From Lachnospiraceae bacterium (GTDB lineage: Bacteria; Bacillota; Clostridia; Lachnospirales; Lachnospiraceae), in the NCBI GenBank assembly GCA_016282915.1, contig JAEELW010000082.1, positions 1 through 64,000 on the forward strand: a stretch of DNA of 64,000 nt, read 5' to 3'. Shown piece after piece: positions 6,790-53,502 of the stretch (its first letter is position 1; each line of letters begins with the position of its first letter). The position numbers and the translations under genes were made by a program. The notes beneath the pieces are model-generated. The model had not been told where the DNA came from, searched no databases, and worked only from the letters and a program-made list of their open reading frames with translations.

Positions 6790-8109
6790 TTACAGATCCG
6801 TGATCTTTGTCAATCTTACATCCACATAATACTTCTCTGTGGTCTCCACTCCGTCAGGCAGTCCCAAATCCACCTCGATCTGGAAGATTCCGTCCTCCGC
6901 TTCCCTGTTATGGGATTCGAGGAACTCACCCACATCGATGCTGCCCTTGATCTTTTTACCGTCCACAGTCTTGATATCCTTATCCACGCCACGGACCTTT
7001 ACCACAAGATTTACAAGCCTGCGCCCGCCGTCGCCGCCCTCACCGTCGGTAAGAAGCAGCACTTCGCCGTCAAAACCGTCCGGCAGATTGCTGAGCATCA
7101 GGTTGCGGATCGGCACGCTGATCTCCTTCTCGATCAGCTTTTCGATGGTCACGGACACGTTTACCGTTCCGTCAAAATCGGATTCGTCATCCAGCACCAG
7201 ACGGATGCCGTCCGGCAGGTATTCCTTCAGATTCAGCGTTCTGGTCAGGGACTCGCTTTCTCCTTCCACCGAGATCTCGGCCGAAGGCACCGTCACCTGG
7301 GAGATACCGTTCAGTATGCTGCTGCGTCCGCAGATCGTCACTTCCCTGCGGTCCGCCACCGGTCCGGCCGAAACCTTATAACCTTCGGCGGGCTTTCCGG
7401 AAATATTATAGTTCACACCGACGGTTTTATACGGCAGTATCTCTACCCCGACGTTGATCGAAGAGATATTGGTCTTCAGGTTATCGTGTTTTACGATATT
7501 CCCGTTTTTGTCATACAGATTGATATCCGCGCTGGTGCTCAGATCGTTGGTCCGTCCGGCGATACTGACGCTGCATTCGGCCTTGGCGATGGTGTTCACC
7601 ACCGATTCCGGACCGCTCACCCGTACCGAGTTCTGGTTCTGCGTGATATTTCCGACTACATAACCCTCTGCGGGCTCCCCCGTAGGCGCTATGTTGACCG
7701 TCATCGGGATCTCTTTCAGATTTTCCACAGACAGCTCCAGCTGATCCCTGCTCTGCCAGATACTGTCCAGCTGGTCGTTACTCTTGTTTGTATAAACCTT
7801 GATCTTTACATTATTCAGATAGGACAGTTCTTCCATATCCGCAACGGCCCGGATATTTTCATAGCTCAGTGTCTCCAGTATGGAACGGGGGCCGCGGATC
7901 TCCACGTCGATGACGTTCGTATTGTTGATCACCTCGTATACTTTTCCCTTTTCGGTCAGTTTATCCCCGTTTAAAAGCTCGACCCGCACCCCGCTGTAGG
8001 AGGTGGAACCGATAGGATCCGCGTAATTCACCACGATCAGCCACAGAACGAAGGCGATCAGCAGTGAAAGCAGCTTAAGACCGATATTACTGGTCAGCCT
8101 TTTCAGCAT
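6790..8109 (-). CDS. cdaR: CdaR, YbbR-domain regulator of the c-di-AMP cyclase
   Basis: Membrane-anchored extracytoplasmic protein that in other Firmicutes binds and regulates the diadenylate cyclase CdaA. One N-terminal transmembrane helix (about residues 8-27, KLLSLLIAFVLWLIVV) is followed by roughly four YbbR-like beta repeats of about 85-95 residues. The start at 8109 is chosen because AAAGGAGG lies 8 bases upstream; the frame is open for nine more codons without a better site. The gene begins inside the last codons of cdaA (23-bp overlap), which shows coupling. The total length is 439 residues. Confidence 0.9.
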   Translation of the reverse strand: MLKRLTSNIGLKLLSLLIAFVLWLIVVNYADPIGSTSYSGVRVELLNGDKLTEKGKVYEVINNTNVIDVEIRGPRSILETLSYENIRAVADMEELSYLNNVKIKVYTNKSNDQLDSIWQSRDQLELSVENLKEIPMTVNIAPTGEPAEGYVVGNITQNQNSVRVSGPESVVNTIAKAECSVSIAGRTNDLSTSADINLYDKNGNIVKHDNLKTNISSINVGVEILPYKTVGVNYNISGKPAEGYKVSAGPVADRREVTICGRSSILNGISQVTVPSAEISVEGESESLTRTLNLKEYLPDGIRLVLDDESDFDGTVNVSVTIEKLIEKEISVPIRNLMLSNLPDGFDGEVLLLTDGEGGDGGRRLVNLVVKVRGVDKDIKTVDGKKIKGSIDVGEFLESHNREAEDGIFQIEVDLGLPDGVETTEKYYVDVRLTKITDL

Positions 8110-8986
8110 CGGTATTGCCTCCTTTCTGTCCGCCAAACCAGGGCTTACGTTTTTTCTTTACTTCCTCCTGCGGCTTGTCCTGTACCAGCTCCAGCTTCTC
8201 CCGCAGACCTTCCTGGGTCAGCGCGCTGTAAAGCTTGCCTTCGTAAGCCACACTCACCTTTCCGTTTTCTTCCGAAACGATCACGGTCATGGAATCCGTA
8301 GCCTCGGAAATACCCACGCCCGCGCGGTGTCTTGTTCCCAGAGCCTTGCTCAGGTTCCGGTTGTCGGAAAGGGGAAGATAACAGGTCGCCGCCACGATAC
8401 GGTCGCCGCGGAAGATCACGGCCCCGTCATGCAGCGGTGTATTATGTTCAAAAATATTGATCAGCAGCTGGGAAGACACGGTGGCATCGATGGCGATCCC
8501 CGTTTTTTCATATTCCATCAGTGTTTCATTGCGTTCCAGCACCATCAGCGCACCGGTCTTCACCCGCCCCATGGCAAAGGAAGCCTTGACGATCTCGTCA
8601 ATGGTATGATCGGAATAACGTCCGTGGGTACGCGTACTGTCACTGTTCATCAATGAAAAAAAGATATTTTTCTGACCCAGCTGTTCCATAGCCCTGCGCA
8701 GCTCGGGCTGCAATACCACCACAATACCCAGCAGCAGCATGGACAGACCGTGCTCGGCGAGCCAGAGGATTGTAGACATATTAAAGATAGCCGCGAGCAG
8801 CAGGATACCAAGGATCACGATCATCCCTTTTAAAAGGGACCACGCCTTGGTCTTGCGCACCCAGCCCATGATCGCATACACCATAAAAGAAATGATCAGG
8901 ATCTCGACTATGTCGGTGATCCGGATCCTCGGCATACGAATGGCGGAAATATACTCTTGTACAAAACTGAGCACTTTATTTATCAT
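8087..8986 (-). CDS. cdaA: Diadenylate cyclase CdaA
   Basis: Membrane enzyme making cyclic di-AMP from two ATP, a nucleotide that controls potassium uptake, osmolyte balance and cell-wall homeostasis. Three N-terminal transmembrane helices (about residues 24-95) are followed by the DAC domain with the catalytic DGA at 187-189 and RHR at 219-221. The C-terminal tail is Lys/Glu rich. The length of 299 is slightly longer than typical CdaA. It overlaps the upstream membrane protein gene by 11 bp and the downstream cdaR by 23 bp, so translation is likely coupled through the block. Confidence 0.95.
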   Translation of the reverse strand: MINKVLSFVQEYISAIRMPRIRITDIVEILIISFMVYAIMGWVRKTKAWSLLKGMIVILGILLLAAIFNMSTILWLAEHGLSMLLLGIVVVLQPELRRAMEQLGQKNIFFSLMNSDSTRTHGRYSDHTIDEIVKASFAMGRVKTGALMVLERNETLMEYEKTGIAIDATVSSQLLINIFEHNTPLHDGAVIFRGDRIVAATCYLPLSDNRNLSKALGTRHRAGVGISEATDSMTVIVSEENGKVSVAYEGKLYSALTQEGLREKLELVQDKPQEEVKKKRKPWFGGQKGGNTDAEKADQ

Positions 8987-10040
8987 GACCCATTCCGTTA
9001 CCTGTTGCTCCCTTGCGGCGTCTCAGCCGGTATTCCGGTACATCGCCCTTTTCCGTATCTTCCTCCTGCGGCTTTACGGCTTTTACCACCGCTTCGGTCA
9101 GGGGTTTTTCCCTTCCCTTGATCTTCTTCACCTTGCGGTCGGCCAGAGACACCGTGTTCTTCGGAACCGCTTTCACATAGTAATAATACTCATCATCCTC
9201 AAACTGTACCTTCTCGGTACGGCTGTAATCCACATTAAAGACAAAGAACTGCAGCACTTCCGCCACCACCAGCGCCAGAAGGCTTCCGACGATCAGCCCG
9301 CCGATGCCGATATTGGTCACAAAACGCAGATCCCCGACCAGCACAACGACGATGTCGATCAGCATTCCGGTGATCATGGCGATGGTCCAGCAATGATCCA
9401 CCGGCAGCCGCCGGATCAGGTATACGCACAGTATCGTGATCGCAAAAGCCACGATGAGCACCTGCATCTCGCGGTTATTCATCATCGCATCGATAAGGAT
9501 ACGAAATTTCTCCAGCATAAATATGGGATCCGATTCCTGTGCCATGAGTCCGCTGCGGTTCAGCGAGATATAATGCAGCAGATGATAGGTCACCACGCCG
9601 CAGCCTACCGAGACCACGGAGGTGGGAACGCCGACAAGTCCCGCACAGATCGGTATCACATAAGGGATCTTCAGCATAAAGCACAGCGGTGTCATGATGA
9701 GCAGTATCGTATCTTTCGGCGAAAAGCGGAAATACATCAGAAACATGATCATGAAGAGCACGCCGGTAAATGCTACTGCCTCAAGCGACAGCGTATAAAG
9801 ATGCAGAAGGATCATCAATACGCTCAGCACCACGATAAAGTTGATCGGGAAAAAGGAGCAGAGCAGTGCCAGCACCAGTACCACGGGTACGGAACGGACC
9901 ACCGCCGAATAACCGATGCCGCGATTGATCATCAAGAACGTGATAAACGCCAGTAAAAACTTTAAGGCGGGTTTGCACAGGTTTTCGAACCTGCTGTAAA
10001 AACTCTTGATCGTTTCTCGTATTGTTAACAGTTGCGTCAT
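8976..10040 (-). CDS. Polytopic membrane protein of unknown function
   Basis: Protein of 354 residues with about eight to ten hydrophobic helices across residues 25-240, then a cytoplasmic, charged C-terminal tail (KVKKIKGREKPL, later RLRRRKGA). I do not recognise a named family. The gene overlaps the start of cdaA and follows another small membrane protein by 10 bp, so a role near cell-envelope or c-di-AMP homeostasis is plausible by location only. It has no signal peptide, transporter motif or catalytic motif that I can see. Confidence 0.7.
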   Translation of the reverse strand: MTQLLTIRETIKSFYSRFENLCKPALKFLLAFITFLMINRGIGYSAVVRSVPVVLVLALLCSFFPINFIVVLSVLMILLHLYTLSLEAVAFTGVLFMIMFLMYFRFSPKDTILLIMTPLCFMLKIPYVIPICAGLVGVPTSVVSVGCGVVTYHLLHYISLNRSGLMAQESDPIFMLEKFRILIDAMMNNREMQVLIVAFAITILCVYLIRRLPVDHCWTIAMITGMLIDIVVVLVGDLRFVTNIGIGGLIVGSLLALVVAEVLQFFVFNVDYSRTEKVQFEDDEYYYYVKAVPKNTVSLADRKVKKIKGREKPLTEAVVKAVKPQEEDTEKGDVPEYRLRRRKGATGNGMGHDK

Positions 10041-43225: not shown

Positions 43226-45673
43226 CTATTCCGTCTGTCCGCCGTTCTCCTGACCATTCCGGATGATGAATCTCACCCTGTGCTTCGCCAGGTATTTCTC
43301 CGCACTGGCTTCGTCCTTTACGAACACGCCCTTGTAATGTCCCGAGAGCACTTCTTTGATCTCCTTCAGTTTTTCCGCCGACTCGTTGATCACCAGTACC
43401 GGCGGACGCTCACTTTCGGGGATGCCCGCCGCCTCCTCTTTCTTTTTTTTCTGTGCTTCAAACTGCTCCCTGCTCACGATCAGCCTTTTATCGATATACT
43501 TTATAAGCAGGTTCTCCAGATCCACATACATAACGGGTTTTGACAGATAATCCGTAAACCCTTCTTTGATATAGCTTTCCCTGGCCCCCATGATCGCATC
43601 CGCCGTAAGCGCGATGATGGGAGTGTCATCTGCGATATGCTCCCTCCGCAGGGTCTCCAGTGTCTGTGTGCCCGACATTCCCGGCATCATCTGATCCAGA
43701 AAGATCACATCAAAACGTTCTTTCCGGGCCGCTTCGATACACATGGTCCCGGACAGGGCGAGCTTTGTCTTTATCCCGGTATCGCGCATCATCTCACTGA
43801 TCACTTCCAGGTTCATCTCGTTGTCATCCACGATCAGGACCCTGGCCTCCGGCGCCAGCAGCTTCGGCCGGAAAGCGTCTCTCTGCATCTGCGCGTTTTT
43901 CAGCCTCTCCGTGTAATCACCGATGGGCGTGGGATCCGCGACCTCCTGAACCATTTCCGCAATAAACACGGAACCCTTTCCGTATTCGCTCTCCACCCGT
44001 ATGCTGCCGCCCATCATCTCCGCAAGCTGTCTGGTGATGTTCAGCCCCAGCCCGGTTCCCTCCACGTTCCGGTTTCTGGTCTCATCCAGCCTCTGGAAGG
44101 AAGAAAAAAGCTTCTCCATGTCTTCCTCACGTATCCCGATACCGCTGTCCGACACCTTTACCACCAGCCTGCCGCTCTCTTTCTCAAAGCGGATATCGAT
44201 CACGATACCCCCCTTTTCCGTGTATTTGATCGCATTGTTTATGAGATTCAGTATGACCTGCCTTATCCGGATCTCATCGCCGTGCATCACGGTGGGTGTA
44301 TCGGGATCGACATTCATCTCATAAGTCAGGCCCTTGTCATCCGCCTTATTCATGGTCATGTTCACGATATCGTTCAGTACCGAAGCCAGATCATATTCCA
44401 CGGGGATCAGTTCCATTCTGCCCGACTCGATCCTGCTCAGATCCAGGATATCGTTGATGATGGACAGGAGCGTGCGTCCGGCACTGTGGATATTGCTCGC
44501 AAACTTCCGGATCTTTTCGTCCTCCGTATCGCGCAGTATCATCTCGTCCATGCCAAGGATCGCGTTCATGGGAGTGCGAATCTCATGGGACATATTGGCC
44601 AGGAAATTGCTCTTGGCTTTGTTTGCATGATCTGCCGCATCCTTTTCGAGCTTCAGCATCCGGGTCTCGTATTCCTGGCGCTGTTCCTCTGCCTTCAGCT
44701 CCTCCATGCGACGGGTATATCCCCGTTCGTTTCTGTATGATACGATATAGAATACAGTGATCATAAACAGGATCCCGACACAGATAAGGATCGTCACGGC
44801 CAGCTGGCTCCGGAATTCCGCATAGAGCTCGTCATTGCCCACCACCATCACGACATACCAGCGGTTACTGATGCTGTTGACATATACGGTGCTGCTCTGT
44901 CCCTCCAGCTCAAAGGAAAACTGTCCGCTGCCCACAGCTCTCACAGAGCTCAGAAAGGCTTCTCCTTCCGCATTGGTATTGATAAAGCTTCCCTTCTTTT
45001 CCCTGTTGCGGTGTGCTATGATAAGACCGTTTTCATCCACGACAAAGCCGTAGCCCTTTCCGTTCAGAGTCAGTTCGTCCATCATGGACTGTATCCCCTT
45101 CAGCTGCACATCCAGCGACAGCACATTCTGTTTGTCCGGCAGGAGCCGGCTTACGGAAATGATCAGATTGCCGGTCTGTGCATCGACATAGGGTGCTGTA
45201 AAAACCACTTCTCCGTTCGCCGCCTTTGCGATCGTATACCAGTCACGGCTCTTCGGATCGTAATCCTCCGGAGGATCCCAGTTGAGTCCGTCCATATATT
45301 TGCTCATGACAAGCCCGTAGATCCCCGTATAGTCCTCATCAAACTGCTCGGAGATATTTTCCGTTTCTTCTACGAGGAACTCATGGATCCTGGCAGGCGT
45401 GGAACCGCTGATCAGCATGTGGTGCACCGAGTCGGCCGTGACATGCAGCACGTTTTCGGCAGTATTCAGATGACTGTCGATGAGAGAAGAAACGTTCAGG
45501 ATGCGGTCCTCGATCACGGCTCTTGAATTGGATACGGCGACGTTATACATGAGCCTGGAGGTATATATGACCATCACCCCCGTAAAAAGAAACACCAGTA
45601 TCAGCGGGATGAGCATGCTGTGTTTTCTGTATCCTTTTCCGGCAGCTCCTCCGTTTTCATGTTTTATCTTCAT
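43226..45673 (-). CDS. Hybrid sensor histidine kinase with extracellular dCache-like domain
   Basis: Protein of 815 residues: TM helix (about 20-42), extracellular double-Cache-like sensor (about 45-285), second TM helix, HisKA with MSHEIRTPMNAILGMDE, HATPase (NLINNAIKYTEKGG, DSGIGI, GTGLGLNI), then a receiver domain (VLIVDDNEMNLEVI, phospho-Asp in FLDQMMPGMSG, Lys in LSKPV). After a linker, the last 45 residues (VLVINESAEKLKEIKEVLSGHY) look like the first part of a second, truncated receiver. It is the last gene of the signalling operon, 24 bp after the DUF3798 gene, and probably responds to a small ligand. Confidence 0.92.
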   Translation of the reverse strand: MKIKHENGGAAGKGYRKHSMLIPLILVFLFTGVMVIYTSRLMYNVAVSNSRAVIEDRILNVSSLIDSHLNTAENVLHVTADSVHHMLISGSTPARIHEFLVEETENISEQFDEDYTGIYGLVMSKYMDGLNWDPPEDYDPKSRDWYTIAKAANGEVVFTAPYVDAQTGNLIISVSRLLPDKQNVLSLDVQLKGIQSMMDELTLNGKGYGFVVDENGLIIAHRNREKKGSFINTNAEGEAFLSSVRAVGSGQFSFELEGQSSTVYVNSISNRWYVVMVVGNDELYAEFRSQLAVTILICVGILFMITVFYIVSYRNERGYTRRMEELKAEEQRQEYETRMLKLEKDAADHANKAKSNFLANMSHEIRTPMNAILGMDEMILRDTEDEKIRKFASNIHSAGRTLLSIINDILDLSRIESGRMELIPVEYDLASVLNDIVNMTMNKADDKGLTYEMNVDPDTPTVMHGDEIRIRQVILNLINNAIKYTEKGGIVIDIRFEKESGRLVVKVSDSGIGIREEDMEKLFSSFQRLDETRNRNVEGTGLGLNITRQLAEMMGGSIRVESEYGKGSVFIAEMVQEVADPTPIGDYTERLKNAQMQRDAFRPKLLAPEARVLIVDDNEMNLEVISEMMRDTGIKTKLALSGTMCIEAARKERFDVIFLDQMMPGMSGTQTLETLRREHIADDTPIIALTADAIMGARESYIKEGFTDYLSKPVMYVDLENLLIKYIDKRLIVSREQFEAQKKKKEEAAGIPESERPPVLVINESAEKLKEIKEVLSGHYKGVFVKDEASAEKYLAKHRVRFIIRNGQENGGQTE

Positions 45674-45697
45674 GCCTTTGCCTCTCCTGTATCCCCT

Positions 45698-46987
45698 TCA
45701 TTCCATGGAGAAATATCTCTCCGGGACCTCCACCTTGGTGGTTCCCATATAATAGCCGGGATCTCCGAAGATATAGGTATCCTGATAGATCAGGATCGTA
45801 TTTTCCAGACGCTCACCGCTTGCCGTATCCGTATAGCACGAACCGTTCCACTCGGCCTTCGGTGAAAATATACCGTATGCCCTGGACAGATCCTCGATAT
45901 TACTGATACTGCTCTGCCCCAGAATGACGTTTCTCGCATGCTCGGCCAGTCCGGCCGAGACCGTATAGCCGTAGGAATAGGTCCAGGTTCCGAACCTTCC
46001 CGCGCCGCCGCCGGCCACGATGGCCTTTTCCACACGCTCATTGATCTTTTCAAAATCGCCCTGCTCGCCGGCCAGATCCAGGTCCAGTGCTCCCGGATAG
46101 CCCATGAGCGGCGAAGGCAGATCCGCCTCGATAAAATACCCGCCATGCTTAAGCAGCATGCGGATCAGCGGCTCGGTATGCGCGTCATTGGTACAGAAGA
46201 AAGCCGTTTTTTTCCCATAGCTCTCCACCCATTCGGGGACATGCTCCGTGATGAACTGCTGCGCTCCGGGAACCCCCACCTCAGTGGTGGGATCGGGAGC
46301 CGTTTCCATCACAAAATTCATGCCGAATTCTTCACAGGCAGCTTTCATGACGGAGACCTGCCGGGCTACCGTTTCATAGGAAAGGTGGCGCGGAAAAGAG
46401 ATGTGTACGAAATTCTCACAACCCAGCTCGTGCGCCGAACGTATCATCAGGTATCCGCGGGCAACAAAATCGCTGTTGACTACCAGATCCGCCACTTCTG
46501 CGATCTCGGAAAAATCCTCATAGGCTTCGCCGGCGATACAGAGGATGTCGGGACGTTTTTCCTTTATACGCCGGAAAGCCTCGGTCGTTCCGTCCACCGC
46601 CTGATTGACGATGACCGCTTTCATATCGGGATCATCCGCAAGATCCACGATGATCTGTATGGTGGTCTCCAGCTCTTCGGTAAAATTGTCCGGATATATG
46701 GCCAGAAGCACATTATCCTCACCGTAACGCGCCTGAAAAGCTTCTGCGCCGCGCCGGTCATCCTCCGACTGCGCGTAGGAGCCGGTCACAATGGCGATAT
46801 GGAAATCCCCTTCGTCTTTCTTCCCGTCGGAAGCAGCTTTCGTGGGTTCCGCTCCGCCCTCATCCGCTTTCGTCGCTGTCGGCTCTTTTACCGCCGCGGG
46901 CACGGGCGGATCCGCTTCCGTTCCGCAGGCACAGAGGCCTGCACACATCGCCAGCGTGAGAAACATACTCAGGATCTTCTTTTTCAT
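45698..46987 (-). CDS. DUF3798 periplasmic-binding lipoprotein
   Basis: Protein of about 429 residues with a lipoprotein signal (LTLAMCAGLCAC). The body has a type I periplasmic-binding fold and the characteristic DUF3798 blocks IYPDNFTEELETTIQIIVDLADDPDMKAVIVNQA, HISFPRHLSYE and TAFFCTNDAHTEPL. The ligand is unknown. It sits between two hybrid kinases with no ABC genes nearby, which suggests that it presents a ligand to one or both kinases. Two adjacent ATG codons are possible; the second leaves better spacing to AAGGAGG. Confidence 0.82.
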   Translation of the reverse strand: MKKKILSMFLTLAMCAGLCACGTEADPPVPAAVKEPTATKADEGGAEPTKAASDGKKDEGDFHIAIVTGSYAQSEDDRRGAEAFQARYGEDNVLLAIYPDNFTEELETTIQIIVDLADDPDMKAVIVNQAVDGTTEAFRRIKEKRPDILCIAGEAYEDFSEIAEVADLVVNSDFVARGYLMIRSAHELGCENFVHISFPRHLSYETVARQVSVMKAACEEFGMNFVMETAPDPTTEVGVPGAQQFITEHVPEWVESYGKKTAFFCTNDAHTEPLIRMLLKHGGYFIEADLPSPLMGYPGALDLDLAGEQGDFEKINERVEKAIVAGGGAGRFGTWTYSYGYTVSAGLAEHARNVILGQSSISNIEDLSRAYGIFSPKAEWNGSCYTDTASGERLENTILIYQDTYIFGDPGYYMGTTKVEVPERYFSME

Positions 46988-46996
46988 CATCCCTCC

Positions 46997-49618
46997 TTAT
47001 CCGTTCCCCGGCTCTTTTGCCGTAAACAGATCCTTCCGCACCAGCACATAATCAGCGTCATGCTTTGCCAGATAGCGCTGTGCCTTCTCCATATCCGTAA
47101 CAAAGGTCCCTTTGCAGAATCCCTCGGTCTTCTCTCTGATCGCCCTCAGAGCCTCGCTGTCGGGATCGATCACCAGCAGTCTTGTATCCGCTGCCTTTTC
47201 TTTCTTCTTCTCTGCCGATTCCGCGATCCTGCGGATGTCTTTCTCTGTAAGCAGCAGCTCCTTCGGCAGATGCTTTCTCAACGCCTTCTCCAGAGCCTCG
47301 GAACGTACCGGCTTGCTCAGATAATCATCAAAGCCCTTTTCCAGATAATACTCCCGGGCCCCGGCCACGGCGTCCGCCGTCAGAGCGATCACGGATACGC
47401 CGCGCATATCAAAACTCGCACGCATCCGCTTCAGCGTCGTTATCCCGTCCATCACCGGCATCATCTGATCCAGAAAGATGATGTCATAACGTTTCTTCTC
47501 CAGCCTCTCCAGAGCCGCAGTCCCCGAAGCCGCCGTATCCACGCGTATCCCGGTCCTCTCCATCAGCCCCGAGATCACCTCCAGGTTCATCTCGTTATCA
47601 TCCACCACCAGCGCCGAAGCATTGGGCGCGATCACCAGCGGCAGTTTCTCGCTCCCGTTTTCCTGCAGGGTGCGGATGCGCTTCGAGAAATCCCCGATCG
47701 GCGCGGGATCAACGATCTGCATGGGCATGTGGATCGTAAAGGTGGAGCCCTCTCCGTATACGCTCTCCACATCAATATGTCCGCCCATGAGCTTCACATA
47801 GTTCCCGGCGATGCTCAGGCCCAGTCCGGTACCCTCGATGTTCCGGTTCTTGGTCTCCTCCAGACGGTCAAAGGGCTGGAAGAGCTTTTCCCTGTCTTCC
47901 TCCCGGATCCCGATCCCCGTGTCCTTTACCGAGATCCGCAGCGTGGTCATTTCGCCCGCTTTCGCTTCCTTCGCATCCTCTCCGCTGCGTTCGAGATCCA
48001 TGAACACACAGACATTCCCCTCATTGGTATATTTGATGGCGTTGTTGATGATATTGAGCATCACCTGTCTCACCCGGATCTCGTCGCCGTGAAAACGCAC
48101 CGGGATATCCGGAGAGGCGCCGAAGGAAAAGAGTATCCCTTTGTCATCCGCCCTCCGCAGGGCGATATTGATCACATCATTGATGACCGAACAGAGCTCG
48201 TAATCCGCCATGACCAGCTCAGCCTTTCCGGATTCGATCTTGCTCAGGTCCAGGATATCGTTGATGATGGTCAGGAGCATATTGCCGGCCGAACGGATAT
48301 CGGAAGCATACTTCTTTATCCTGCTGTTCTCCCCCGCTTCCCGCAGGATCATCTCGTCCATTCCGAGGATCGCGTTCATGGGCGTCCGTATCTCATGGGA
48401 CATGTTCGCCAGGAAATTGGTCTTGGTCTCGCTGGCACGGACGGCTACGGCAGCTTCCTTCTGCGCTTCCCTCACCGCATAGAGCTGATGAATGATAGCC
48501 AGCGTGACGGTCCAGAACAGACCGGTGATCACAAAAGTCCCCGCATGCTTTTCGTCCACAGTCACCACCCGTATGATCTCGAACACGCAGGAGATCAGCA
48601 GCCCCGTCATGCCGATGAAGCTGATCCGGTAGGAGCGGTAAAAACCCTTGTGCAGGTCCCGGATCATCGCCACGACGGTACAGGCGAGAACGGTCCCCAT
48701 GGTGAACGCAAGAAACGGAAGCATCGTGAGAAAATCCAGGGTTCCGGAAAAATGCAGCAGACCGGCGCAGATCGTAACGTTTTCCAGCAGGAAGAGACAA
48801 AAAGAATACATCATCCGGTAACGGCGTTCCTGCAGGATATCCAGATAATAAATGAAGGGATAGGGGATCAGAAGCACCATCAGATAGGACATGGTCCCGT
48901 CGATATAATAGCGCCGGAACGCAAGCTGAAAGAGGTCGGAATCAAAGACCAGCCACAGGGTCACAAACAGTACGCCGATACCCATGGCCAGGATGGGGGA
49001 CTCCATCTTTCTCGAAAAACGGAGCAGAAGGCCGATCAGGATCGCGATGATCGAAATACAGAAGAGCGCAAACGTCAGGACAAAATTCACGATGTCCAGA
49101 CTGATGATCCTTTCGATGATCCCCAGGCTGCTCCCTATGTAGACCGGACGCAGATTGACCGTGTTGTTTTTATTTGCGAAAAAAACGAGCCGGATCGTCT
49201 TCCCGGCATCCCCGGGATTCAGGCCGACGAAGATATGCATACGTTTGAGCGAGCCGCCGATGATCGTATCCGCATAGCGGTCATAAGTCTTCCGGAGCTC
49301 CCCGTCGATATATACGGAGGTATTGCTGTCCGACAGGTAGCATACCCAGGTATCGTCATAGATCACCCCGGGAAGCTGCATCTCACATACAAACTCCTCC
49401 CCCGCCGCAAGCTCCACACTGCAGGGAAAAGAAAGAGGCCCGGCCCCGCCGGTACGCGTGAAAGCGTTCATCTCCTCACAGCGGTAGGTGATCTGGTCGG
49501 CATCCTTTCCCCGGAGGATATGCGCGAAAAAAAACACGGCGACAAAGATCAGGATTGCAAGAAATAAAAGGGTGATCACCGCGACCAGCAGTTTTTTTAT
49601 GCCCCCGTCCCTGTCCAT
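46997..49618 (-). CDS. Hybrid histidine kinase with 7TM-DISM-like sensor
   Basis: Protein of 873 residues. One N-terminal helix, an extracellular beta domain (about 40-175) and seven transmembrane helices (about 180-395) match the 7TMR-DISM receptor design. HisKA (MSHEIRTPMNAILGMDE), HATPase (NIINNAIKYTNEG, DTGIGI, GTGLGLSI) and a receiver (ALVVDDNEMNLEVI, FLDQMMPVMDG) follow. The last 60 residues (LLVIDPDSEALRAIREKTEG) again resemble a truncated receiver, as in the other kinase. It overlaps the stop of the GGDEF gene. The start is uncertain (ATG 49618, or TTG 49630 with a very close ribosome site). Confidence 0.92.
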   Translation of the reverse strand: MDRDGGIKKLLVAVITLLFLAILIFVAVFFFAHILRGKDADQITYRCEEMNAFTRTGGAGPLSFPCSVELAAGEEFVCEMQLPGVIYDDTWVCYLSDSNTSVYIDGELRKTYDRYADTIIGGSLKRMHIFVGLNPGDAGKTIRLVFFANKNNTVNLRPVYIGSSLGIIERIISLDIVNFVLTFALFCISIIAILIGLLLRFSRKMESPILAMGIGVLFVTLWLVFDSDLFQLAFRRYYIDGTMSYLMVLLIPYPFIYYLDILQERRYRMMYSFCLFLLENVTICAGLLHFSGTLDFLTMLPFLAFTMGTVLACTVVAMIRDLHKGFYRSYRISFIGMTGLLISCVFEIIRVVTVDEKHAGTFVITGLFWTVTLAIIHQLYAVREAQKEAAVAVRASETKTNFLANMSHEIRTPMNAILGMDEMILREAGENSRIKKYASDIRSAGNMLLTIINDILDLSKIESGKAELVMADYELCSVINDVINIALRRADDKGILFSFGASPDIPVRFHGDEIRVRQVMLNIINNAIKYTNEGNVCVFMDLERSGEDAKEAKAGEMTTLRISVKDTGIGIREEDREKLFQPFDRLEETKNRNIEGTGLGLSIAGNYVKLMGGHIDVESVYGEGSTFTIHMPMQIVDPAPIGDFSKRIRTLQENGSEKLPLVIAPNASALVVDDNEMNLEVISGLMERTGIRVDTAASGTAALERLEKKRYDIIFLDQMMPVMDGITTLKRMRASFDMRGVSVIALTADAVAGAREYYLEKGFDDYLSKPVRSEALEKALRKHLPKELLLTEKDIRRIAESAEKKKEKAADTRLLVIDPDSEALRAIREKTEGFCKGTFVTDMEKAQRYLAKHDADYVLVRKDLFTAKEPGNG

Positions 49619-49622
49619 CAGT

Positions 49623-50951
49623 TCAGCCAAGCACCTCCGTTACATGACCCAGCTCACAGCTCTCCGCACAGCCGCACTGCGTATAACGCTCCTGCACCTG
49701 TTCCGCAAGCGCCTCCGCAGCTTCCTTCGTTTTCCCCGGAAGCAGCAGGAAGAACTGTGACGCGCCGCTCTTAAAAATCACATCATCCCCGGCAAGAAGC
49801 CCGTCAAGGATCTCCCCAAGCGCCTCCGCAGCCTCTGCGCTCCCGGCACCGGCCGCCTTTTCCCTGAGGTCAAACAGAAGCTTTGCCGCGCTCTCTCCCG
49901 AGGCTTTCTGCCTGCGTTTCAGGAAGCGGTACACGCCTGCAAAGGCATCCTGTCCCAGCCGGAGTGCGGCTGCGCTCTCCCCTCTTTCATCCAGGATCTG
50001 CGAAAGCTTTGCCAGAGCTTTATCAAGGCTTTCCGTTTCCGCCTCCGAAAACAGCTCCTCACTGTAAAGCGCATATCCGTGCTTTCCGTTCTGCTTTACC
50101 CGGTAAAGTGCCTTATCCGCCAGCGGGAGCAGCAGCTCATAATCGCTTCCGTTTTCCGGCAGCTGCACGGCACCGACGGAGACTCCCACCGGGATGCCGA
50201 ACTCCTCTCCCATCATCTCTTTGCAGGCTGCGGACAGCTGCTCATTCAGGCAGAGGGTCAGCTGCGCCACATCCTCTTCCCGGCTGCGTTCCCTCAGAAA
50301 CGCGAGGAATTCGTCTCCTCCGATCCTGCACAGCACATCCTCCGACCCGGTATTCTTCCGCACCAGCTCCGCAAAGCTTCTGAGCACCCGGTCTCCCATA
50401 TCATGACCGTAAATGTCATTCACCAGTTTGAAGCTGTCCAGATCCAGTATGGTCAGCATCCCCCTTTCACTGCGGCAGAGGACGCTCAGTTTTTTCTGCG
50501 TTCCCGCTTTGTTCAGGAATCCAGTCAGTCTGTCCGTAACGGCTTCTTCACTGAGGTTCTCGATCGTCCTGCTGTTCTGTATGGTATTCTGTATGCGGCG
50601 GAGCAGTATGTCCCGGTTAAACGGCTTGCGGACATAATCGGATGCTCCCAGGGTCAGCCCCTTCGTCTCCGATTCACTGTCGTTTTCCCCGGTCAGAAAG
50701 ATGACCGGAACTTCCTTCTGTCCCCTGCCGGCTTCCGCTTCCCTGAGCTTTCGAAAAGTCTCAAAGCCGTTCATCTCCGGCATCAGGATATCCAGAAGGA
50801 TCAGATCCGGACGGTGCTTTTCCGTAAAAGCGAGCAGATCCTTTCCGGACCGCGCCGTAGCAACCCGGTATCCCGCTTCGCGGAGTATGTCCCCCGCATT
50901 CTGCAGGTTCATCACATCATCGTCTACCACCATGATCCAGGCGTTTGCCAT
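49623..50951 (-). CDS. Receiver-GGDEF diguanylate cyclase
   Basis: Response regulator of 442 residues. The receiver (about 1-125) has the DD pair (VVDDD), phospho-Asp in LLDILMPEMNG, Thr and Lys. The GGDEF domain has an intact GGDEF at 211-215, so it should make c-di-GMP. The upstream inhibitory RxxD site is GSED, so product inhibition is probably lost. The C-terminal 130 residues include VIFKSGASQFFLLLPGKT, which looks like a second GGDEF domain whose motif has decayed. Kinase output through the HPt gene could control its activity. Confidence 0.9.
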   Translation of the reverse strand: MANAWIMVVDDDVMNLQNAGDILREAGYRVATARSGKDLLAFTEKHRPDLILLDILMPEMNGFETFRKLREAEAGRGQKEVPVIFLTGENDSESETKGLTLGASDYVRKPFNRDILLRRIQNTIQNSRTIENLSEEAVTDRLTGFLNKAGTQKKLSVLCRSERGMLTILDLDSFKLVNDIYGHDMGDRVLRSFAELVRKNTGSEDVLCRIGGDEFLAFLRERSREEDVAQLTLCLNEQLSAACKEMMGEEFGIPVGVSVGAVQLPENGSDYELLLPLADKALYRVKQNGKHGYALYSEELFSEAETESLDKALAKLSQILDERGESAAALRLGQDAFAGVYRFLKRRQKASGESAAKLLFDLREKAAGAGSAEAAEALGEILDGLLAGDDVIFKSGASQFFLLLPGKTKEAAEALAEQVQERYTQCGCAESCELGHVTEVLG

Positions 50952-50982
50952 AGCTTTTCTCCCCTGTCCCGCACTCCGCCGG

Positions 50983-51582
50983 CTATTCGATCGCGGGAAT
51001 GATCCCGCGGATCAGTGCTGCAGCCTCGTCGTACATAAAATCCTTTATATTTTCCATCGCTTCCTTCAGTTTTTCTTTCTGGGTCAGGCGGAAGGGATAG
51101 CCCAGAAGCTTTCCCGTAAGCTCCGCAGACAGTTCGTCGTCAAAATCGTCCAGCGCCTCCAGAAGCTTTGCCGCCACTTCCCGCGCTTCTTCCGCCGTGA
51201 TCTCCCCCCTGATCTTTACGCTCTCCATCTCGCCGATGGGACGGATCGTTTCGATCAGCTGCGCATACATTTCAAGTGCCGGAGCGGTTTTTTCCTTCAT
51301 AAGAGCCACATCAAATCTCTTTGACGCGAGCTCCAGCTCCTCAAAGGCGTCTGCCAGCTCTGCCGCTCCGATCATCCTTGCGTTGCTCTTCAGCGAATGC
51401 ACCCGTATACAGAAAGCCTCGGTATCGGAAGTCGCCAGCATTTCTTCCACGGCTTTTCTGTTTTTTTCATATCCCTTAAAGAATCTCTGCAGGGCCGCGA
51501 TGTATCTTTCTTCGCTTCCCGTATAGCCGATCCCGTCCTTTGTCGATATTCCCTTTTCATCCAGCCAACTGATATCCGTCAT
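50983..51582 (-). CDS. HPt phosphotransfer protein
   Basis: Protein of 199 residues. A four-helix HPt domain covers about residues 20-110, with the phospho-accepting His in CIRVHSLKSNARMIGAAELAD. It would shuttle phosphate from the receiver of a hybrid kinase to the response regulators on both sides. The additional C-terminal half (about 110-199) is helical, acidic and not recognised. It lies between two response-regulator genes, 22 bp after one and 31 bp before the other. Confidence 0.88.
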   Translation of the reverse strand: MTDISWLDEKGISTKDGIGYTGSEERYIAALQRFFKGYEKNRKAVEEMLATSDTEAFCIRVHSLKSNARMIGAAELADAFEELELASKRFDVALMKEKTAPALEMYAQLIETIRPIGEMESVKIRGEITAEEAREVAAKLLEALDDFDDELSAELTGKLLGYPFRLTQKEKLKEAMENIKDFMYDEAAALIRGIIPAIE

Positions 51583-51604
51583 CGTCCAACCCCCGTTCTC
51601 CGGC

Positions 51605-52408
51605 TTATCCCAGCACTTCTATGATCTTGGCCACAAGTTCCGATTTCTTTGAAGGCTTCAGCACATAACCCTCCGGCTTGTATTCCACGAGCAGCTTCAC
51701 GACCGCATCCTTATCTGCCACTCCCGTCAGGAATATGACCGGTATCTCCGCGTATCCCGTATCCTGTTTTAACTGTTTCAGCACTTCCGGCCCGTCCATT
51801 TCCGGCATCAGATAATCCAGAAGGATCAGGTCAAAGCTGTATTTTTTAAGCGCCCTAAACGCCATCTCCCCGCTGTTTACGAGCGTCACCTCATAAAACT
51901 CCTTCAGCTGGTCCCGGATCACGATCAACTGCTCGGGATCATCATCGACTACCAGGATATGTCTGCGCCGGAAAGTGTCCGTATCGTTTGTATTGATGTA
52001 TTCCCGCAGCGAAAACTCTTTCTCTTCAAAATTCTTTTCGATCTCCTCAAGCCTCCGGTACAGCGTCAGCATGGAAACAGGCCGTGACAGAAAGAACATC
52101 TTTTTCAGGCCGGAATCCGACATGAACAGCTTCCGGTCCTCATCATTGGCCACCACTATGACCTCCGAAGAACCGAGGCGTGCGCTTTCCTTCAGGATAT
52201 CGTAGATCTTCACGCTGTCCGCACTTTCATTTCCGGTGCAGATGATGACTACATGGGGAAGCTCGCTCAATATGGTCTCGAGAAGCACGCTTTTTGCCGC
52301 GTCGCAGCGGATCGGCCTGTAGTCCCTGTCATCTTCCAGATGCGCGCAAATATCCCTGGCGATCCTCCGGTTTCTTCCCGTGACCAGGATCTTCAGCTTT
52401 TTATTCAT
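51605..52408 (-). CDS. Two-domain response regulator, first receiver degenerate
   Basis: Protein of 267 residues. The N-terminal 125 residues have a receiver fold (KILVTGRNRRIARDICAHLE) but lack the DD pair and the phospho-Asp position (CTGNES), so they are a pseudo-receiver. The C-terminal domain (about 147-267) is a complete receiver with VVDDD, phospho-Asp in LLDYLMPEMDG, Thr in FLTG and Lys in LKPSKK. There is no output domain, so it may act as a phosphate sink or by protein contact. The start overlaps the DUF3021 stop (ATGA) with AAGGAGG upstream. Confidence 0.87.
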   Translation of the reverse strand: MNKKLKILVTGRNRRIARDICAHLEDDRDYRPIRCDAAKSVLLETILSELPHVVIICTGNESADSVKIYDILKESARLGSSEVIVVANDEDRKLFMSDSGLKKMFFLSRPVSMLTLYRRLEEIEKNFEEKEFSLREYINTNDTDTFRRRHILVVDDDPEQLIVIRDQLKEFYEVTLVNSGEMAFRALKKYSFDLILLDYLMPEMDGPEVLKQLKQDTGYAEIPVIFLTGVADKDAVVKLLVEYKPEGYVLKPSKKSELVAKIIEVLG

Positions 52409-52896
52409 CCGACCTCCTTATATTCCAATGCCCGGTATTCATCCAGTTCCCGGTTGATCTCTTTGATCTGGGCTTTATAGGAAAGATAATTTGCCAGCCA
52501 TACGACGATATATCCGAGCGTCATAAAGAACATGATCAATAGATAATTGGGGAGATTTTCCAGTGTGAACCAGTGCAGCAAGACTCCCGTGACCGTGTAT
52601 CCGATCATGACCGCCAGATAATGTACCGCCGTGCACCTTACCAGGCTCCATTCCTCAATACTGTATACCGCAGATCCTCCCATGGCCAGCACTCCGAAAA
52701 ATGCGGATACGAGCGACTGTACGATAAATGCGGACAGCGGACTGCCCGTCGCCGCGATCAGCTCGTCACTCACGGAATGGAGCTTCCCGTCACCGGCACT
52801 GATGGTGCCTATGAGCGTTGCGAGCACCTGACACAATGTCACTCCCATCCCGAAGCCTATGATCGATAATATGATCACTCTGTTTCTGAACTTCAT
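52405..52896 (-). CDS. DUF3021 family membrane protein
   Basis: Protein of 163 residues with four transmembrane helices (starting MKFRNRVIILSIIGFGMGVTL) and a short charged C-terminal helix. DUF3021 genes are typically paired with LytTR-type regulators and are thought to restrain or sense for them, though the mechanism is not established. Here it directly follows the LytTR gene (19 bp) and overlaps the response-regulator gene by 4 bp. Confidence 0.88.
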   Translation of the reverse strand: MKFRNRVIILSIIGFGMGVTLCQVLATLIGTISAGDGKLHSVSDELIAATGSPLSAFIVQSLVSAFFGVLAMGGSAVYSIEEWSLVRCTAVHYLAVMIGYTVTGVLLHWFTLENLPNYLLIMFFMTLGYIVVWLANYLSYKAQIKEINRELDEYRALEYKEVG

Positions 52897-52915
52897 GCGA
52901 TACTCCTCCCGTCTA

Positions 52916-53377
52916 TCACGCCTTCAGCATTTTCTTGATGCCCTTGACACAGCTCCTGGATGCCCAGGATTTCACTCCGTTCTCAAATTCCACGCCGATG
53001 GTGCCCGCCATATTGATATCAAAACGCTTTACCTTGTATACATTGACGATCTCCGACTGGGAGATCCGGATAAAGCGGGAGGGACTGAGTTCCTCCTCAA
53101 GCGCGGAGATCGTCTTTCTGCAGACAAATACCGCCTCCTCCGTCTGGATCAGGATTTTTCTGCCCTCCGTATACACACGGACGATCTCCCTCTGGGATAC
53201 AAATTCAAGCCCTTCTTCCCCCGTCGCCGGGATACGCGGAAAATCATTTTCCGTCACATTCTCGATCGCATCGATGATGTTCTCGACCTGCCGGTTCTTT
53301 TCCCGTGTCAGGATCTTCACCAAAGGATCGATACGTTCCGCATCAATTTCTATTTCAATATCCACCATTGATCTCAT
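52916..53377 (-). CDS. LytTR-domain DNA-binding regulator
   Basis: Protein of 153 residues. The N-terminal 50 residues are an extra alpha/beta segment; residues about 50-153 form a LytTR domain (REIVRVYTEGRKILIQTEE, then FIRISQSEIVNVYKVK). There is no receiver domain, so activity must be set by its DUF3021 partner or by binding. It heads an eight-gene operon, with a probable binding site just upstream, so autoregulation of the whole signalling cluster is likely. Confidence 0.88.
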   Translation of the reverse strand: MRSMVDIEIEIDAERIDPLVKILTREKNRQVENIIDAIENVTENDFPRIPATGEEGLEFVSQREIVRVYTEGRKILIQTEEAVFVCRKTISALEEELSPSRFIRISQSEIVNVYKVKRFDINMAGTIGVEFENGVKSWASRSCVKGIKKMLKA

Positions 53378-53433: not shown

Positions 53434-53439
53434 ATTATA
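53434..53439 (-). promoter_or_regulatory. Minus-strand -10 box of the LytTR operon
   Basis: A perfect TATAAT on the minus strand, about 57 bases before the LytTR start. No -35 box is apparent at the right distance, which fits a promoter that needs an activator. Confidence 0.5.
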
Positions 53440-53466
53440 CTAAAAAACGGCGGGATACATCTCTCA

Positions 53467-53502
53467 TCGTGTTTATTCCGTCGTTTTTCATGTTTATTCG
53501 GT
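53467..53502 (-). promoter_or_regulatory. Putative LytTR operator: two direct repeats 21 bp apart
   Basis: TCGTGTTTATTCCGT (53467-53481) and TCATGTTTATTCGGT (53488-53502) agree at 13 of 15 positions and are offset by exactly 21 bp, two helical turns. LytTR proteins are known to bind such paired direct repeats. The site lies 28 bp upstream of the -10 box. Confidence 0.65.

Follow-up and report, generated by a model that had tools for sequence, protein, structure and literature searches.

Putative capture of a DUF3798 importer-type binding protein by a Cache hybrid histidine kinase in Lachnospiraceae

A 64,000-nucleotide stretch of a Lachnospiraceae bacterium genome (GenBank assembly GCA_016282915.1, contig JAEELW010000082.1, positions 1 to 64,000 of the forward strand; the whole stretch is called the window below) carries on its minus strand, at 43226-53377, eight closely spaced genes for signal transduction proteins and a lipoprotein of the DUF3798 family (PF12683; 430 aa, 45698-46990). 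The DUF3798 gene is directly followed by a gene for a hybrid histidine kinase with a dCache_1 sensor (815 aa, 43226-45673), which is the constant genomic partner of DUF3798 in the clade to which the window protein belongs. We propose that the binding protein of an importer was captured once as a co-receptor of this Cache kinase and that it feeds a phosphorelay consisting of a histidine phosphotransfer (HPt) protein, a receiver protein and, optionally, a diguanylate cyclase; we give this reading a probability of about 0.72.

DUF3798 proteins and their genomic partners

The window protein matches PF12683 with 396.7 bits (gathering cut-off 24.6 bits; E = 6.9e-119) and thus belongs to DUF3798, which the Pfam description files as a domain of unknown function. 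The single clear relative of solved structure in a sequence search was 3qi7 from C. difficile, deposited as a putative transcriptional regulator. The same entry was the top Protein Data Bank (PDB) fold match of the predicted structure (mean predicted local distance difference test score, pLDDT, 87.4), further matches being Leu/Ile/Val-, ribose- and AI-2-binding proteins of type I and LacI-type regulators. Cys22, the lipoprotein signal, is kept in at least 90% of alignment A1. With its modelled type-I periplasmic binding fold and its lipoprotein signal, DUF3798 has these two marks of a substrate-binding protein (SBP). PF12683 is listed among the SBP signatures in a 2022 survey, according to which the part that SBPs play in signalling as well as in transport is largely unexplored (PMC9602780). 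Other mentions of DUF3798 in the accessible part of the literature searched are annotation only. That literature, with most subscription papers outside its reach, yielded no paper connecting DUF3798 with kinases or with an importer operon, and none naming 3QI7.

The genomic neighbourhoods were mapped by tblastn. In an order-level sample of 392 genomes, 36 had a DUF3798 match, six of which (three of them below the cut-off) were left out of the neighbourhood analysis. A cassette for an RbsA-type ATP-binding cassette (ABC) importer stands beside a DUF3798 gene in 26 of the 36 and a Cache kinase in two (the window's genome and G400); neither partner was recognised in a further two (G107 and G268). 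For a phylum-level sample (398 genomes, 68 of them matching), the view covered the best-scoring 30 loci and ~1.5 kb of flank in either direction; every one of the 30 has a neighbouring RbsA-type ABC ATPase, and no kinase occurs within ~1.5 kb. According to Pfam, the ABC cassette of locus L052 contains ABC_tran twice, BPD_transp_2 in both permeases, and DUF6672. Because of these neighbours in both samples, the ancestral role of DUF3798 is most likely ABC import, and the idea of a kinase accessory family-wide was ruled out. An earlier note on this DNA, made from the sequence alone, had read the operon context as a role for DUF3798 in general, i.e. presentation of a ligand to kinases, and had named the neighbourhoods of other DUF3798 genes as the check; in these neighbourhoods the general association is with the importer (including 47 of the 80 nearest loci described below), and the association with kinases is confined to one clade.

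This clade emerged from a scan of the contigs of named genomes, which yielded the 80 loci closest to the window protein, many of them in Lachnospiraceae bins from ruminants. A Cache kinase is adjacent to DUF3798 in 30 of these loci (downstream in 25, upstream in five), an ABC ATPase in 47, both in none, and three loci are cut by a contig end; as the loci were chosen for their closeness to the window protein, the ratio of 30:47 is no census. The kinase loci also contain genes for the HPt protein (26 of 30), the receiver protein (22), a LytTR regulator (20), a DUF3021 protein (22) and a 7TM sensor kinase (17), each of which occurs in 0/47 ABC loci; conversely, the cognate permeases are found in 0/30 kinase loci. 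Together with eight loci from whole genomes (L041, L043-L046, L064, L141 and L142) and the window, and with the two duplicates (L155 = L044, L174 = L064) counted once, there are 37 distinct loci of the kinase type. In all of them DUF3798 adjoins an orthologous dCache hybrid kinase, and none has the cognate ABC cassette. The pairing is kept where the pair is separated from the remaining cluster genes (L043, L046). An SBP gene beside a sensor kinase, conserved across species, is the arrangement of a three-component-type system, and it is present here at 37 distinct loci.

In a 94-row tree, the 37 kinase-linked DUF3798 proteins form one clade (bootstrap 100, SH-aLRT 98), and all 200 bootstrap trees (100%) show a single partner change. 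This tree omits 12 distant ABC-linked rows and two duplicates of a 108-row tree, where several distant ABC-linked rows had very long branches; in the latter tree, the kinase clade is nested within ABC-linked rows, the SH-aLRT support of its nearest ABC neighbours being only 83-89. Despite their different partners, the kinase-type and ABC-type proteins are roughly 65-78% identical. As judged from these sequence comparisons, capture of an importer binding protein by a Cache hybrid kinase, once, is the most likely history.

A whole-genome search with the cognate permease recovered orthologs of 75-100% identity in 3/3 ABC-type controls. It found none in 9/9 kinase-type genomes (the window's and eight others), in which the matches had at most 30% identity and E values no better than 7e-10; those in the window's genome are 25 and 27% identical. 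A transport SBP should be encoded with its importer or at least in a genome that holds it, and the window's genome and its eight relatives appear to lack this importer. The idea of ligand presentation to a kinase is supported for one clade (37 distinct loci, split pairs included, with the importer absent from 9/9 genomes searched) and finds no support for the family in general. Nor is there support for DUF3798 serving both kinases of the operon: the constant partner is the Cache kinase, and a 7TM sensor is present in only 17 of the 30 loci. In many kinase loci, furthermore, this sensor is just 21-26% identical to that of the window, with DUF3798 at 63-76%.

Residues were compared over 103 rows (37 kinase-linked, 53 nearest ABC-linked and 13 distant ABC-linked). 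At 136 positions, the kinase-linked and the nearest ABC-linked rows share a residue that reaches 97% or more in each of the two groups. Conservation of 97% across the whole set of 103 rows is seen at 52 positions, including SFPRH (198-202), PDP (232-234), TN (267-268), PSP (292-294) and TW (335-336). Several of these conserved motifs are placed after strands and may line the cleft. Near-complete differences between the groups are Val72 to Phe/Tyr, Pro133 to Asp/Glu, His157 to Tyr/Phe, Leu160 to Phe, Met208 to Val/Tyr/Ile and Gly303 to Asp. Such a pattern fits a kept pocket with a changed contact surface, although the ligand, too, may have changed.

The sole outstanding metabolic neighbour of the ABC-type genes is an M20 dipeptidase gene 3' of the cassette in six loci (L201, at 7679-9193, L210, L213, L219, L221 and L050, that is, five of the 47 close ABC loci plus L050); one member was scanned and matches TIGR01893 (beta-Ala-His dipeptidase). 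This is a weak hint at a peptide-like ligand, and six loci are too few for naming the ligand from the ABC neighbours. Genome G046 has five DUF3798 matches, and two divergent DUF3798 genes stand there in tandem at L073:10012-12658 (G046:C32), with no ABC or kinase partner recognised.

The Cache kinase and the phosphorelay operon

The sensor domain of the Cache kinase (dCache_1, E = 4.9e-16) was compared with the amino acid-binding motif of dCache_1AA domains, [YFWL]x4[RK]xW[YFW] x13-17 [YFW] x~27-34 D, as given in the accessible part of PMC11237719. All six residues (Y138, R143, W145, Y146, Y162 and D188) are present in the window protein, the last spacing being 25 residues versus the published ~27-34. 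Five positions (138, 143, 145, 146 and 188) were followed across sensors; they are retained, Tyr being replaced by Phe or Trp in some rows, in 38/38 DUF3798-linked rows (36 distinct) and in 8/8 paralogs whose fetched 20-kb regions contain no DUF3798 gene. Since the motif residues are kept in linked and unlinked rows, the Cache kinase has probably retained its own small-molecule site; DUF3798 may be a second input. The pairwise identities of DUF3798 and of the Cache sensor correlate with r = 0.62 (36 loci), which common descent alone could give. Genome G013 has another Cache kinase, with a sensor identity of 45%, next to a cluster of LytTR, receiver, HPt and 7TM genes (L145:8736-18486, G013:C77); the 20 kb fetched contain no DUF3798 gene, and this may be an SBP-free version of the system.

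All eight open reading frames (ORFs) of 43226-53377 lie on the minus strand and are joined by small gaps or short overlaps, as the earlier note had described; the ORF coordinates confirm this layout, and Pfam backs most of the domain calls. In the direction of transcription, the genes encode a LytTR DNA-binding regulator (153 aa, 52916-53377; E = 6.6e-20), a DUF3021 membrane protein that is a putative inhibitor of the LytTR regulator (163 aa, 52405-52896; E = 2.3e-24), a two-part receiver protein (267 aa, 51605-52408), an HPt protein (199 aa, 50983-51582), a receiver-GGDEF (Rec-GGDEF) diguanylate cyclase (442 aa, 49623-50951), a hybrid histidine kinase of 7TM-DISM-like architecture (877 aa, 46997-49630; start codon TTG), the DUF3798 lipoprotein and the Cache kinase. 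The corresponding junctions are a spacing of 19 bp, an overlap of 4 bp, spacings of 22 and 31 bp, an overlap of 8 bp and spacings of 6 and 24 bp. The widest gap (HPt to Rec-GGDEF) is thus 31 bp, and the maximum of 63 bp given before was wrong. Terminator-like matches (15 versus 10.4 in shuffles, sd 3.6) and promoter-like matches (15 versus 9.6, sd 2.9) are not clearly over background, and the minus-strand candidates in the cluster all lie inside ORFs, so that the internal promoters or terminators that had been considered as a possible split of the cluster do not stand out.

The set of relay parts is complete, as had been proposed: hybrid kinases, the HPt histidine and the receiver aspartate were all recognised by Pfam (Hpt below its cut-off) and by conserved residues. 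HisKA, HATPase_c and Response_reg were found in both kinases, and Response_reg and GGDEF in the cyclase. Pfam detected no Hpt domain within either kinase; since both bear a receiver, a free HPt protein is expected. The putative HPt protein, which has a C-terminal extension, matches Hpt with E = 1.1e-4 and 22.8 bits, under the cut-off of 24.6, and its assignment rests on His62, which 95% or more of 30 aligned sequences retain. Leaving the window aside, its gene is in the same cluster in 31 of 36 kinase loci. At G025:C182:2846-3367, near LytTR and receiver genes, there is a second HPt-like copy that is interrupted by an in-frame TGA and has probably decayed. The receiver protein matches Response_reg (1.1e-23) in its C-terminal half, where 95% or more of 24 aligned sequences have Asp198; no output domain was found in its 267 residues. 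Of its previous description as a pseudo-receiver/receiver protein, the second part is backed by Pfam, and the first, for the degenerate N-terminal half without a Pfam receiver match, is a label given by eye.

In the cyclase, Asp54 and an intact GGDEF motif are conserved at 95% or more in nine aligned sequences. However, Rec-GGDEF occurs in only 8/36 kinase loci besides the window (9/37 in total; in L045, for example, downstream of the Cache kinase). The cyclase is accordingly an accessory and not the core part it had been taken for, and cyclic di-GMP (c-di-GMP) as the core output was rejected on this count. Effectors of c-di-GMP probably exist in the window's genome, as it contains four PilZ matches. 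The extra C-terminal region of the cyclase (within 49623-50951) matches GGDEF_2 weakly (4.8e-5, under the cut-off), which is suggestive of a second, degenerate cyclase domain.

The 7TM-DISM label of the upstream kinase finds no backing in Pfam, the 7TM-DISM model giving no match in any of seven homologs at E ≤ 10. In the AlphaFold model of the protein (mean pLDDT 73.9), an N-terminal helix is followed by a beta domain (51-167) and a bundle of helices (168-389); among the weak fold matches of the model is the periplasmic domain of RetS (3jyb, E = 1.3e-3). The label is plausible because this topology fits and RetS is among the matches. The protein has one receiver and a short tail; by eye, the C-termini of both hybrid kinases (43226-49630) share a similar stretch of ~50-60 residues resembling a truncated receiver.

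The LytTR/DUF3021 pair and its promoter repeats

The LytTR protein has no receiver domain and was rejected as the output regulator of the phosphorelay. A receiver-less LytTR gene with a DUF3021 membrane protein gene behind it (52405-53377) is the gene arrangement of a LytTR regulatory system (LRS), and the pair is better read as a separate LRS at the operon promoter. In such systems the membrane protein inhibits the regulator, and, according to PMC6193735, 9-bp direct repeats with a 12-bp spacer lie about 10 bp upstream of the -35 element. Direct repeats of this type, ACCGAATAAACA and ACGGAATAAACA, are present on the minus strand at 53470-53502 with a 21-bp period (9-bp core and 12-bp spacer). 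They are identical at 11 of 12 positions; 0/500 shuffles were as good, and none appeared in 100 shuffles of the window. A -10 element, TATAAT, recognised by eye at 53434-53439 (minus strand), sits 10 + 6 + 17 bp past the second repeat core. The predicted -35 element (53457-53462) is AGATGT and unlike TTGACA; the repeats, the spacer and the position of TATAAT fit the LRS layout of PMC6193735, as far as its accessible text describes it.

Twelve LytTR upstream regions were hand-picked from loci with a LytTR match and cut at the start of the tblastn match, which may lie inside the gene in some. Nine of them have a 21-bp repeat with at least 10/12 matches, three of these nine (L168, L194 and L175) being equalled by 20, 11 and 46 of 500 shuffles, respectively. 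The remaining regions (L041, L172 and L155) have 8/12 matches, no better than shuffles; L041 has a copy with three mismatches to the pattern. Over 21 genomes, the repeat matched in 5/9 of the kinase type and in 1/12 other genus members, the control pattern giving two matches in one genome.

The window's genome contains the pattern three times at up to three mismatches (backward control, 0), the first copy being the one at the operon promoter. A second copy, with a single mismatch (G000:C40:9365-9397, i.e. L236:3365-3397), lies upstream of gene L236:3500-9121, with CATAAT at a fitting distance; this gene encodes a secreted protein of 1873 aa with a CBM_X2 match slightly under the cut-off and is a possible second target of the operon's LytTR regulator. 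The third copy (G000:C50:13223-13255, two mismatches) precedes gene L237:7350-9047 for a 565-aa secreted Big_2 protein and is a weaker candidate, as a terminator-like hairpin (by eye) lies between repeat and gene. This distribution predicts a small LytTR regulon in the window's genome. In G514 (G514:C13), repeats with two mismatches each at L141:10243-10275 and L141:17153-17185 precede the LytTR/DUF3021 genes and a kinase operon that stands apart and runs divergently from DUF3798, which looks as though the regulator tied a split locus together.

Proposed mechanism, alternatives and known systems

DUF3798 would originally have been the substrate-binding lipoprotein of an RbsA-type ABC importer with an ATPase and two BPD_transp_2 permeases (and, in the nearest relatives, DUF6672). 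Once, in or near Lachnospiraceae, the gene or a copy of it would have left the importer operon and become paired with a dCache_1 hybrid histidine kinase; the importer's permease is no longer found in the window's genome and the eight relatives searched. The lipid-anchored extracellular protein would close on a small-molecule ligand, dock on the Cache ectodomain and thereby alter the kinase output. From the intact residues, the predicted route of the phosphate starts at the histidine of the Cache kinase and leads, via the receiver of this kinase and His62 of the free HPt protein, to Asp198 of the receiver protein; in the window's species, Asp54 of the Rec-GGDEF cyclase would be a further acceptor. 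The 7TM kinase, as a second input, would feed the same HPt protein, and the LytTR regulator could set the amount of sensor made by binding the direct repeats of the promoter. The Cache kinase may then read two ligands, one directly and one via DUF3798. A more speculative extension, which we consider possible but rather doubtful, is a dual-input receptor with an amino acid in the Cache pocket and a DUF3798-specific ligand delivered by the captured, no longer transporting protein, the summed signal passing through the shared HPt protein and the LytTR/DUF3021 switch deciding on the making of the sensor and of at least one very large secreted surface protein.

Several observations weigh against capture of DUF3798 as a co-receptor. 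RUG12474 (L156, L196) and RUI498 (L184, L183) hold both kinds of DUF3798 at separate loci, so not all kinase-type genomes have lost the importer. Metagenome bins make up most of the genomes, and with a completeness of 84-100% for the nine searched for the permease, missing sequence could explain some absences. Four kinase loci (L154, L197, L205 and L211) have other ABC ATPases (25-39% identity, not the cognate cassette) in their flanks, and the divergent copies L072, L073, L074, L076 and L079 have neither recognised partner. The 13 distant ABC-linked rows also vary at several of the group-specific positions, so some of these may be ordinary divergence. The Cache domain, with its own ligand motif retained, may not need DUF3798. 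For the relay, the available stretches of 4/30 and 8/30 kinase loci lack HPt and receiver protein, respectively, several contigs being short. The genus sample, by contrast, speaks in favour of the reading: an HPt match of at least 50% identity (a threshold set after viewing the list, the next best match having 42%) occurs in 6/35 genomes, exactly the six with DUF3798; identical sets of six in 35 arise in 1 of 1,623,160 random draws, a figure that ignores phylogeny.

Could DUF3798 still bind substrate for another, distant ABC importer, its adjacency to the kinase reflecting co-regulation only? SBP genes can sit apart from transporter genes, as stated in the accessible part of PMC9602780, and the weak permease matches of the window's genome (25 and 27%) and the unrelated ATPases flanking 4/30 kinase loci would be compatible with this. 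However, the cognate permease is absent from 9/9 genomes, the kinase- and ABC-linked proteins differ at near-fixed positions and are unmixed in the tree, and the adjacency to the Cache kinase persists through rearrangement, all of which makes this explanation improbable. Only a little less improbable, in our estimate, is that the Cache kinase senses an amino acid alone and DUF3798 scavenges or buffers the same ligand without docking. The motif positions kept in linked (38/38) and DUF3798-free (8/8) sensors agree with it; a buffer, however, fails to explain the one-to-one adjacency in 37 loci and the group-specific residues, and the last motif spacing deviates from the published one (25 versus ~27-34).

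The eight genes might, moreover, be two or three neighbouring systems (LytTR/DUF3021, the 7TM relay and the DUF3798-Cache pair) that exchange no phosphate. Gene order does differ between kinase loci, the pair is divergent from the other genes in G014, and in G013 it is separated from the relay genes, HPt included, which lie on a different contig. Against such independence stand the identical distribution of HPt and DUF3798 in the genus sample, the lack of an Hpt domain in either receiver-bearing kinase and the presence of HPt in the same cluster at 31/36 further loci; we regard separate systems as unlikely. With capture as a Cache co-receptor preferred, the neighbourhoods give DUF3798 a concrete ancestral role (SBP of an ABC importer) and a derived one (kinase co-receptor), one change in the tree apart. 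This suggests that, on one occasion in the evolution of some gut bacteria, a part of a transport system was turned into a signal receptor, and the natural pair of kinase-type and ABC-type proteins makes it testable which surface residues choose a permease or a receptor as the partner of a binding protein.

Pairs of a periplasmic binding protein and a hybrid kinase are represented by TorT/TorS and LuxP/LuxQ. TorS is in fact the top NCBIfam match of both kinases, though below the cut-off; the match begins at about residue 320 or 390 and leaves out the ectodomains (here dCache_1). The CuaD-CuaS-CuaR system of Ruminiclostridium cellulolyticum, also a member of the Clostridia, is similar in that a second SBP is encoded beside the sensor kinase and that CuaD binds its kinase; its ligand, cellobiose, and the induced importer are known (PMC10384115, accessible part). 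It differs in that here the SBP is of the DUF3798 family, the genome search turned up no cognate permease, and a hybrid kinase and a free HPt protein are involved. AatJ of the AatJ-AauS-AauR system of Pseudomonas syringae is an ABC transporter SBP that also works with a two-component system; its locus encodes the importer, as far as the available text of PMC7386598 goes, whereas kinase-linked DUF3798 is a separate clade without the importer next door. The receiver-less LytTR, the DUF3021 membrane protein and the 9-bp repeats with 12-bp spacer upstream of the operon promoter correspond to those of LRS, apart from the poor hexamer at the -35 position, and unlike in the LRS described in the accessible part of PMC6193735, pair and repeats here head a phosphorelay operon. 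SBP-dependent kinases as such are therefore already known from CuaD and AatJ; set against what these partly accessible sources describe, the new features are the use of a DUF3798 protein, its most likely single change of partner, the relay through a free HPt protein and the LRS at the promoter.

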